Program-made: the position numbers and the translations under genes
The notes under the pieces: model-generated
The model's input: only the letters and a program-made list of their open reading frames with translations
What the model was told of the DNA's origin: nothing
The model's database searches: none
Source of the DNA: Geodermatophilaceae bacterium NBWT11
GTDB lineage: Bacteria; Actinomycetota; Actinomycetes; Mycobacteriales; Geodermatophilaceae
DNA length: 64,000 bases
Reading direction: 5' to 3'
NCBI GenBank assembly: GCA_014218215.1
Contig: CP043652.1
Location: 62,001 to 126,000, forward strand
Shown here: in pieces, positions 19,478 through 21,668 of the stretch
How the letters are laid out: every line of letters begins with the position of its first letter
How positions within the stretch are numbered: position 1 is the first letter of the stretch

Positions 19478-20017
19478 TCAGGTGGCCGAGGAGTCGTCGG
19501 AGGACTCGGCGCGACCGCCCAGCGCGGCCGCGGCGACCTCGCGACGGGCGTCGGCCAGCCACCGGTGCTGCCGGTCGGCCTGCCGGATGAGGTCGTCGAG
19601 CAGGGCCCGGTCCAGCCGCGGGTCCTCGGCCGCCAGTCCGAGCAGGGTCTCGAAGCCGGCCCGCTTGAGCAGCACCGCGCCGCTGAGGAACTCGAACTCG
19701 ACCACGGACGACAGCGGGGACCGCCGGAGGAACCGCCCGTTGGGCTTGAGCCGGGACAGCTTCTCGCCCACCCACACCGCGACCGGCTTGAACCGGCGGA
19801 CCGGGAGCCCCAGCGCGCGCATCATGGCGGTCAGCCCGGTGCGCTCCTCCAGCAGCTCGCCCCGCAGCCGGTGCAGTCGCTGCTCGTACACCGTGCCCGC
19901 GTGCACGCCGATCATCCGCTCCACCAGCTCGATGCCCCCGGCCGCGGCGGCGAGGTGGTCGTTGCAGTAGACGCCGAGCAGTTCGACGTCGCGCACGGCT
20001 CCGCTGGACTGGGGCAC
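19478..20017 (-). CDS. Helical conserved hypothetical protein
   Basis: A 179-residue, mostly alpha-helical protein (DVELLGVYCNDHLAAAAGGI, VERMIGVHAGTVYEQRLHRL, long C-terminal helix). The bundle-like pattern with E, H and Y positions recalls ferritin-like folds, but I cannot identify a metal site with confidence. The GTG start is supported by GAGGAG about 6-11 nt upstream. It is divergent from the HTH-MurA gene with about 100 nt between. Confidence 0.75.
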   Translation of the reverse strand: MPQSSGAVRDVELLGVYCNDHLAAAAGGIELVERMIGVHAGTVYEQRLHRLRGELLEERTGLTAMMRALGLPVRRFKPVAVWVGEKLSRLKPNGRFLRRSPLSSVVEFEFLSGAVLLKRAGFETLLGLAAEDPRLDRALLDDLIRQADRQHRWLADARREVAAAALGGRAESSDDSSAT

Positions 20018-20088: not shown

Positions 20089-20104
20089 ATCTCACCTGTG
20101 AGAT
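20089..20104. promoter_or_regulatory. Perfect palindrome, candidate autoregulatory operator of the HTH-MurA gene
   Basis: ATCTCACCTGTGAGAT has perfect 7-nt arms with a 2-nt centre and is 13 nt upstream of the HTH-MurA ATG. It is AT-richer than its surroundings. XRE-type HTH proteins bind such short palindromes as dimers, so the downstream gene's own HTH domain is the obvious candidate. Confidence 0.6.
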
Positions 20105-20117
20105 ACCGTCGCGGGCG

Positions 20118-21668
20118 ATGACGCTCACCGAAGAAGCCACCGGTCAGTCCCTGCGCCAGATCGGCACCCTGGTCCGCGACGCCCGCCGCCACCACGGTCT
20201 CACCCAGAGCCAGCTCGGCGAGCGCCTGGGCACCAGCCAGAGTGCGATCGCCCGGATCGAGCAGGGCAACCAGAACCTCACCCTGGAGCTGCTCGGCCGC
20301 CTGTCGGCCGCCCTGGACAGCGAGCTGATCACCGTCGGCTCCCCCGCCACCACCGGCCCCACCCACCTGCGGGTCTCCGGCGGCCGCCCGCTGGCCGGCT
20401 CGGTCACCGTGAAGTCCAGCAAGAACGCCGCGGTCGCGCTGCTGTGCGCATCGCTGCTCAACCGGGGGACGACGACGCTGCGCAACGTCGCCCGGATCGT
20501 CGAGGTCGAGCGGATCCTGGACGTGCTGCGTTCCATCGGCGTCGTCGCCACCTGGGACGAGGCCGGCCGCGACCTGACCATCGTCGTCCCGGAGCAGCTG
20601 GACCTGGCCGCGATCGACGCCGACGCCGCCCGGCGGACCCGCAGCATCATCATGTTCCTGGGCCCGCTGATCCACCGGGAGCCCGACTTCCGGCTGCCCT
20701 ACGCCGGTGGCTGCGACCTGGGCACCCGCACGATCGAGCCGCACATGATCGCGCTGCGGCACTTCGGCCTGGAGATCGAGGCGCACGCCGGGGAGTACCA
20801 GGCCACCGTCACCGAGCCCGAGGCCCGCGACCGCAGCATCGTGCTCACCGAGCGCGGGGACACCGTGACCGAGAACGCGCTGCTGGCCGCCGCCCGGCAC
20901 GACGGCCGCACCACCATCCGCAACGCCAGCTCCAACTACATGGTCCAGGACCTCTGCCTGTACCTGGAGCTGCTCGGTGTGCAGATCGACGGCTTCGGCA
21001 CCACGACCCTGGTGGTGCACGGGCGGCCGGTGCTCGACGCCGACGTCGACTACACCCCCAGCGAGGACCCGGTCGAGGCGATGAGCCTGCTCACCGCGGG
21101 CATCGTCACCGGCTCCGAGCTCACCGTCTGCCGCGCGCCGATCGAGTTCCTGGAGATCGAGCTGGCGATCCTCGAGGAGATGGGGCTGCGCTTCGACCTC
21201 TCCGCGGAGTACCCGGCCGAGAACGGCCGCACCCGGCTGGTGGACGTCACCATCCACCCCAGCGAGCTCAAGGCACCCATCGACAAGGTGCACCCGATGC
21301 CCTTCCCGGGGCTCAACATCGACAACCTGCCGTTCTTCGCCGTCATCGCGGCGACCGCGACCGGCGGGACGCTGATCCACGACTGGGTCTACGACAACCG
21401 GGCCATCCACCTCTCCGACCTCACCCGGCTCGGCGCCGACGTCCGGCTGATGGACCCGCACCGCGTCCTGGTCACCGGGCCCACCCGCTGGTCGGGGGCC
21501 GAGATCGTCTGCCCGCCCGCGCTGCGCCCGGCGGTCTGCATCCTGCTGGCCATGCTCGCGGCCAAGGGCGACTCGGTGCTGCGCAACGTCGACATCATCG
21601 CCCGCGGCTACGAGGGCCTCTACGAGCGGCTGGTGGAGATGGGCGCCCAGATCGAGGTCTTCCATTAA
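20118..21668 (+). CDS. Fusion of XRE helix-turn-helix domain and MurA-like UDP-GlcNAc enolpyruvyltransferase
   Basis: The 516-residue protein starts with an XRE HTH (about 12-68: GLTQSQLGERLGTSQSAIAR) joined to a complete MurA/EPSP-synthase-fold domain (about 80-516). MurA landmarks are present: Lys in VKSSKNAAVALL, the loop LPYAGGCDLGTRTIEPH with Cys at the position of the E. coli MurA Cys115, and LNIDNLPFFAVIAATAT. MurA commits UDP-GlcNAc to peptidoglycan. A DNA-binding MurA paralogue may sense UDP-sugars or PEP rather than feed the wall; fusions of this type exist in actinobacteria. A perfect palindrome precedes the start. Confidence 0.9.
   Translation: MTLTEEATGQSLRQIGTLVRDARRHHGLTQSQLGERLGTSQSAIARIEQGNQNLTLELLGRLSAALDSELITVGSPATTGPTHLRVSGGRPLAGSVTVKSSKNAAVALLCASLLNRGTTTLRNVARIVEVERILDVLRSIGVVATWDEAGRDLTIVVPEQLDLAAIDADAARRTRSIIMFLGPLIHREPDFRLPYAGGCDLGTRTIEPHMIALRHFGLEIEAHAGEYQATVTEPEARDRSIVLTERGDTVTENALLAAARHDGRTTIRNASSNYMVQDLCLYLELLGVQIDGFGTTTLVVHGRPVLDADVDYTPSEDPVEAMSLLTAGIVTGSELTVCRAPIEFLEIELAILEEMGLRFDLSAEYPAENGRTRLVDVTIHPSELKAPIDKVHPMPFPGLNIDNLPFFAVIAATATGGTLIHDWVYDNRAIHLSDLTRLGADVRLMDPHRVLVTGPTRWSGAEIVCPPALRPAVCILLAMLAAKGDSVLRNVDIIARGYEGLYERLVEMGAQIEVFH

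Follow-up and report, generated by a model that had tools for sequence, protein, structure and literature searches.

An XRE–MurA fusion gene of actinobacteria and the putative operator conserved at its own start

The HTH–MurA gene and its upstream repeat

The window analysed here is a stretch of 64,000 nucleotides of Geodermatophilaceae bacterium NBWT11 (GenBank assembly GCA_014218215.1, contig CP043652.1, positions 62,001 to 126,000 of the forward strand). At 20118-21668 on the plus strand it contains a gene for a protein of 516 amino acids in which an XRE-type helix-turn-helix (HTH) domain is fused to a full MurA domain, and which we call HTH-MurA. Shortly before this gene, at 20089-20104, lies an inverted repeat that, judged by comparison among related genomes, is the conserved putative operator of the same gene.

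The coding sequence rests on an open reading frame (ORF) call together with matches to Pfam and MurA profiles. Residues 19-69 (20172-20324, plus strand) match Pfam HTH_3 with 46.6 bits against a cut-off of 23, and the recognition-helix segment, TSQSAIARIE, occupies residues 39-48 (20232-20261, plus strand). The MurA/EPSP-synthase-fold domain, defined by profile matches and fold alignment, comprises residues 83-514 according to the MurA models (20364-21659, plus strand) and residues 87-505 according to Pfam EPSP_synthase. An AlphaFold model built from 38 sequences (37 orthologues were added to the window protein) has a mean predicted local distance difference test (pLDDT) of 85 and a predicted template modelling score (pTM) of 0.79; its MurA part aligns with MurA crystal structures at Z values of 43-46 across 409-416 residues. 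The best match is MurA 5ujs (Z 46.2, 414 residues, root-mean-square deviation 2.0; VIA-align), which places the domain within the enolpyruvyltransferase fold. An earlier note on this DNA had proposed just such a fusion of an XRE HTH with a complete MurA-fold domain, and these matches bear it out. The same genome carries a separate canonical MurA (C1:848259-849515), 33% identical to HTH-MurA.

The earlier note had also described a perfect 16-nucleotide palindrome 13 nucleotides before the ATG. The position is correct, since the repeat ends 13 nucleotides before the start codon, but the palindrome is not perfect: two perfect 7-bp arms, ATCTCAC and GTGAGAT, flank a 2-nucleotide CT spacer in a 7-2-7 arrangement, and 14 of the 16 positions pair.

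Conservation of the putative operator

The repeat, TCTCACNNGTGAGA, occurs at a single place in the 4.59-Mb genome, which already argues against chance; the decisive evidence is its presence across orthologues. These were drawn from named genomes (the best 80 of a longer list, at 68-90% identity), from relatives and from a sample of the class, and gave 168 loci with readable upstream DNA, a set that includes near-duplicates of the same strains; one locus with a missing 5' end (L021) was excluded from every operator count. The pattern ATCTCA-N4-TGAGAT was found with two mismatches or fewer upstream of the gene in 165 of the 168 loci (none in 92, one in 61, two in 12), the other three carrying 3 (L029), 5 (G171) and 6 (G361) mismatches. 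When each of the 168 upstream regions was shuffled five times, 0 of 840 matched at that threshold. The earlier note would have taken absence of the palindrome upstream of orthologues as a refutation; nearly all of them carry it. Records from Nonomuraea and Streptomyces add two more loci with exact sites. A comparable operator at canonical murA is unsupported: the best match at 11 such loci has 3-6 mismatches, and 0 of 11 reach the threshold of two.

The site is kept while the neighbouring genes change, and for this reason we assign it to HTH-MurA. In the window it shares its intergenic region with a divergent gene of 179 amino acids (19478-20017, minus strand), which matches no family in Pfam or NCBIfam; in Streptomyces coelicoflavus (L068) HTH-MurA and aconitase are divergently arranged; and in Oerskovia (L018) HTH-MurA lies between two IMPDH-family genes (L018:1844-3046 and L018:5649-7172).

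Among 296 genomes sampled from the class, 86 have the gene (E <= 1e-120), with one match each; when 296 genomes were sampled from the phylum, the matches numbered 12 and all fell within the same class. Based on its relatives' loci, we read SCO5998 of Streptomyces coelicolor as the Streptomyces orthologue.

Operator and recognition helix change together

Two of the 168 loci lack a recognisable operator, and in both of them the recognition helix is rewritten. Wider sampling in the family of those two loci, where 74 of 79 genomes have the gene and 70 loci were read, brought the set to 212 proteins, unique over their last 400 residues, from 218 loci. The helix core [TS]SQ[SG]A.xRxE is intact in 207 of these proteins, and the operator is present in 206 of the 207. 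In the remaining five (L258, L259 and L312 of one genus, L341, and L311) the helix is altered or missing and the operator is lost; no protein combines an altered helix with a retained operator. The association gives a Fisher p of 1.8e-9, a value that ignores kinship and uses a helix pattern defined after inspection of the list.

Variation within the intact class follows the same direction. Among 203 proteins (L297, L345 and L347 were left out), all 11 with an SQG helix have the symmetric operator AACTCA-N4-TGAGTT, against 2 of 192 with an SQS helix. Parsimony on a tree of 120 of the 212 proteins requires three changes for helix loss and four for operator loss, five for SQG and six for the symmetric operator; the supported independent pairs that differ all point the same way, and some pairings hold one non-differing pair. 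These comparisons indicate that the operator changes with the recognition helix, in few independent events, and they agree with the earlier proposal of a MurA fusion that binds DNA and does so at its own start.

The five exceptional loci are natural uncoupled variants, in which the recognition helix is altered or the HTH absent, the operator is gone and the MurA domain is kept. L259 has a frameshift within its MurA domain. No HTH was found in the 2.3-kb locus of L311. By eye, a TANNNT-like box is still present at the operator-less loci L258, L259, L312 and L341.

Promoter context

A logo was made from 116 dereplicated sites. Its columns exceeding 0.8 bit are those of the operator, with the family consensus ATCTCA[TC]ATnTGAGATA, plus a T four bases further on; the flanks on either side are not conserved. 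Together these columns contain TANNNT (T in 116 of 116, A in 114 and the final T in 110), which in the window reads TACCGT at 20104-20109 on the plus strand, a -10-like box overlapping the right half-site whose promoter role is predicted from the logo. In 140 of 165 loci, 11-13 nucleotides separate the 16-bp core from the start codon downstream. The operator is thus probably placed over the spacer and the -10 box of a leaderless or nearly leaderless promoter.

Search for further sites

In its own genome, ATCTCANNNNTGAGAT was found at one place with zero or one mismatch, so the genome search proposed in the earlier note leads back to the same gene. At two mismatches there were 15 places, against 4 for the reversed control pattern; a fuller core allowing up to three mismatches added only C1:2191159, and its control gave none. 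From the 15 two-mismatch sites, C1:2191159 alone was read further. It makes up one half of a longer palindrome, in which inverted arms of 11 bp flank a 1-nucleotide centre (AACTGACATCT-G-AGATGTCAGTT; L366:1201-1223, C1:2191159-2191181) at the predicted start of a gene for a GntR/FCD regulator, and is probably that regulator's own operator.

Exact ATCTCANNNNYGAGAT is present in 51 of the 76 family genomes, nearly always once, and its reversed pattern in 0 of 76. A set of 121 genomes, assigned to Streptomyces because their closest named relatives belong to that genus at 95-98% identity, holds the exact site in 113 and the reversed control in one; among the matches listed, 21 of the 121 contain two exact sites and 8 contain no exact site. 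The reversed control across the class sample occurs in 4 of 296 genomes.

Thirteen extra sites were read, 10 from the Streptomyces set and 3 from the class set. Eight lie inside predicted ORFs, which were picked heuristically, and one of the eight (L365) is at the very start of its ORF and could precede the true start codon. The other five are beside MarR-type genes, two of them confirmed as such by Pfam and three by eye. Near position 1201 of L353, L354, L355, L356 and L362, the Streptomyces MarR-type genes have recurrent ATCTCAACGTTGAGAT or similar palindromes adjacent to them, which look like the MarR proteins' own operators.

The search for a wider regulon found no second credible target among the sites read, and judged from these searches the regulon looks like one gene, HTH-MurA itself. 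The earlier note knew of no described regulon or operator; likewise, no description of an HTH-MurA regulator or of this operator was found in the open-licence PubMed Central (PMC) literature, where the search for the operator used a single word, its sequence as found in Streptomyces; on SCO5998 the searches brought up nothing beyond the two accounts cited below.

The MurA pocket

Residues are numbered after E. coli MurA, using an alignment of 129 family proteins with 11 canonical MurAs from the same class. K22, N23, R91, G114, C115, G118, R120, D231, D305, R331, R371, R397 and G398 are kept in 129 of 129 family proteins, so that the catalytic and phosphoenolpyruvate (PEP) residues K22, C115, R120, D305, R331 and R397 are all invariant. 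The loop Cys and the substrate Lys that the earlier note had recognised are among them: C199 of the window protein (codon at 20712-20714, plus strand) corresponds to C115, and K102 to K22. Cys at this position is found in all 129 and in all of 90 further proteins; in the 11 canonical MurAs sampled, residue 115 is Asp, a residue reported to confer fosfomycin insensitivity in the parts of the two sources available (PMC10352792, PMC4062475).

Equally invariant in the 129 are ten replacements: D49E, P121T, L124P, K160E, V161R, S162G, V163D, G164T, E188N and D369P. Five of them form the rewritten pyrophosphate loop ERGDT (K160-G164 in E. coli; residues 245-249 of the window protein, 20850-20864, plus strand), invariant in 129/129 and 90/90. 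According to the available sections of a deep mutational scan of E. coli MurA, S162 and G164 touch the UDP pyrophosphate; only Ser or Thr is tolerated at 162, only Gly at 164 and only Asp or Glu at 369, and C115 is irreplaceable (PMC9842644). At 162, 164 and 369 the family has G, T and P without exception, whereas the canonical MurAs keep S162 in 11, G164 in 10 (Met in L112) and D369 in 11. The 90 further proteins (89 loci; L304 repeats L270) are the same at the checked positions, except for Ser in place of P121T in two and gaps after the L259 frameshift.

Profile scores draw a similar line. Against the murA equivalog TIGR01072 (cut-off 392.7), the window protein scores 298.3 bits and its counterparts in S. 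coelicoflavus and Oerskovia 300.1 and 292.8, all below the cut-off, and the controls pass it (531.4 for the canonical MurA of the same genome, 612.1 for E. coli MurA). The broader subfamily PRK09369 (cut-off 297) is passed by three members, with 310, 313 and 305 bits.

By these comparisons, the PEP side of the pocket is kept and its nucleotide side rebuilt. Given the invariant changes in the UDP-pyrophosphate loop and at D369, UDP-N-acetylglucosamine (UDP-GlcNAc) bound in the standard mode is not supported, and is probably not the ligand; PEP is plausible. Of the two candidates that the earlier note had named for sensing, PEP therefore survives and UDP-GlcNAc, in its usual mode, probably does not. 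That note had further viewed the enolpyruvyltransferase site as the ligand pocket of a regulator. Its regulator part agrees with our comparisons; a pocket and nothing else fits them less well, since an EPSP_synthase domain is found in L311, L258, L312 and L341, where DNA binding appears lost. That the domain outlives the loss of the HTH or of the operator speaks for a role other than DNA binding, and the MurA domain probably works as an enzyme as well.

A model of self-repression

In the explanation that we consider likely, HTH-MurA is an enolpyruvyltransferase-like enzyme that represses its own gene through a single dedicated operator, and its amount would follow its own substrates. For the regulation step, sequence comparison gives strong support; ligand, catalysis and direction of control are what we infer beyond it. 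In the model, the protein would dimerise and bind ATCTCA-N4-TGAGAT through its XRE helix-turn-helix. The bound dimer would cover the spacer and the first -10 bases in its own core promoter, just before the leaderless start codon, and would block RNA polymerase, repressing rather than activating. The MurA domain, with its PEP and enolpyruvyl-transfer machinery kept and its nucleotide-sugar pocket rebuilt, would bind PEP and a co-substrate, probably not UDP-GlcNAc in the usual way; the resulting open-to-closed movement may change the affinity for DNA, and the amount of protein would then track the protein's own substrates.

Several observations weigh against this model. With respect to the site, the exact 12-base core is present in 33 of 210 class genomes that lack the gene (gene call at E <= 1e-120), and 38 of the 86 class genomes with the gene hold no exact site, many of them having variants with one or two mismatches; found in 48 of 86 genomes with the gene and in those 33 without it, the exact core was rejected as a marker of the gene. 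The operators of L029 and L323 carry three mismatches. One protein of the 212 (L331) has an intact helix core and has lost the operator; inspected by eye, it keeps the right half-site and the -10 box and has GKRN in place of GKQN. The supported independent pairs number two or three, too few for a significant sign test.

With respect to the promoter, no conserved -35 was seen in the logo of the 116 dereplicated sites, which leaves the promoter class unsure. In Streptomyces, SCO5998p is described as a SigB-dependent promoter in the accessible part of the source (PMC8346170), and its sequence was found 220-370 nucleotides upstream of HTH-MurA in related loci (L066:3601-3660, L068:3781 and L083:3632-3680); with this second promoter upstream, the operator does not govern all transcription there. 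As to the pocket, E. coli intolerance transfers incompletely, since C115 is essential in that species and the sampled canonical MurAs have Asp, and L112 has Met at G164. Finally, the two domains of the protein may be uncoupled from each other, the ligand then having no effect on DNA binding.

Four other explanations were weighed against the same evidence. A possible, if doubtful, one is a pure ligand-sensing repressor, in which the MurA domain has lost catalysis and controls DNA binding only by taking up a metabolite, whether PEP, a nucleotide sugar, UDP-N-acetylmuramic acid or a fosfomycin-like phosphonate. It would account for the score under the murA equivalog cut-off, for the separate canonical murA in the genome, and for changes in the pyrophosphate loop and D369 at positions where, in the sections of the scan available, E. 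coli MurA did not tolerate them (PMC9842644). It does not explain why the domain persists in the helix-altered or HTH-less, operator-less L311, L258, L312 and L341, and the checked catalytic residues are invariant in 129/129 and in 90 more proteins apart from the frameshifted L259.

Rather unlikely is an ordinary second MurA that makes enolpyruvyl-UDP-GlcNAc and whose HTH simply autoregulates it, as the annotation of SCO5998 as 'MurA2' implies in the portion of the source available (PMC12161575). The MurA fold and the catalytic residues are kept, and three members pass PRK09369, all of which such an isozyme would predict; it would have to function with S162G, V163D, G164T, E188N and D369P fixed in 129/129, three of them at the very positions that the available scan data confine to Ser or Thr, to Gly, and to Asp or Glu (PMC9842644).

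That the operator mediates activation, by a MerR-like distortion of the spacer, appears improbable. The site does lie within the spacer region and the -35 is not conserved, as activation would have it, but the TANNNT-like box that L258, L259, L312 and L341 keep without the operator is what one would expect of a promoter that works unaided by the protein. XRE dimers bound over a -10 box, moreover, usually repress.

That the palindrome serves a different conserved regulator or is a sigma-factor element, with the HTH acting elsewhere, is very improbable: the overlap with the -10-like box, the exact sites in gene-less genomes and the similar palindromes at MarR genes in some Streptomyces would fit it, but the site stays with HTH-MurA through changing neighbourhoods, changes with its recognition helix, and is kept in 0 of the 5 helix-altered or HTH-less loci.

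Returning to the self-repressing enzyme, we would tentatively go one step further. HTH-MurA may be a widespread actinobacterial enolpyruvyltransferase for a new acceptor other than UDP-GlcNAc, whose catalytic cycle reads the supply of PEP and acceptor and reports it to its single operator, a one-gene feedback circuit. The family now has a defined operator and a defined residue set, along with a recognition helix that matches the operator and has natural variants of its specificity, and a gene whose annotation names just a cell-wall enzyme becomes a testable metabolic sensor. If the model is true, the Streptomyces 'MurA2' would be a self-regulating enzyme with a substrate other than the presumed one, rather than a spare MurA, and the reason why these actinobacteria retain a second, Cys-type MurA would become directly testable. 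The invariant loop Cys would also make HTH-MurA a covalent sensor of fosfomycin-like phosphonates.

Comparison with known systems

The nearest described relative is SCO5998, whose gene adjoins aconitase (SCO5999), with a DmdR1 site predicted between the two; it is named MurA2 and counted as one of two UDP-GlcNAc transferases for cell walls in the part of the source available (PMC12161575). The divergent arrangement in S. coelicoflavus is the same, the published SCO5998p sequence lies upstream of HTH-MurA in related Streptomyces loci, and from these relatives SCO5998 is read as the Streptomyces member of the family. The difference is in what is described: the available portions of the published accounts give a cell-wall transferase, a SigB promoter and the DmdR1 site, and in them an HTH, an operator or autoregulation is not mentioned.

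With canonical MurA, the family has in common the fold (Z 43-46), the catalytic and PEP-side residues and the loop Cys, and it differs by the N-terminal HTH, the altered UDP-pyrophosphate loop and D369, and a score under the equivalog cut-off. NikO, the nikkomycin enolpyruvyl transferase of Streptomyces tendae, also has a MurA-like fold (Z 40.8 between the HTH-MurA model and 4fqd); it is a biosynthetic enzyme without an HTH and acts on another acceptor.

On the DNA-binding side, the HTH is similar to the solved HipB, C.BclI, SinR and 434 repressor (E 2e-4 to 5e-3), and a palindromic site at the protein's own promoter, the latter predicted for HTH-MurA, is common to these XRE/HipB-type autorepressors. 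In E. coli, HipB recognises TATCC-N8-GGATA, whose arms are as far apart as those of TATCT-N8-AGATA in the HTH-MurA operator. Unlike these proteins, HTH-MurA is fused to an enzyme domain of 430 residues and has one dedicated site; it scores 47.7 bits with the couple_hipB / Y4mF antitoxin model, below the cut-off of 71.65, and no HipA-like toxin was matched among the four window neighbours scanned.

A close parallel in architecture is BzdR, in which an XRE HTH is likewise joined to a ligand domain with an enzyme fold. In BzdR this domain is shikimate-kinase-like and the protein controls a catabolic operon; the BzdR-type model PRK08154 matches only the HTH part of the window protein, with 32.6 bits against a cut-off of 204. 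HTH-MurA thus differs from BzdR in its enzyme fold and in that it appears to control itself alone.

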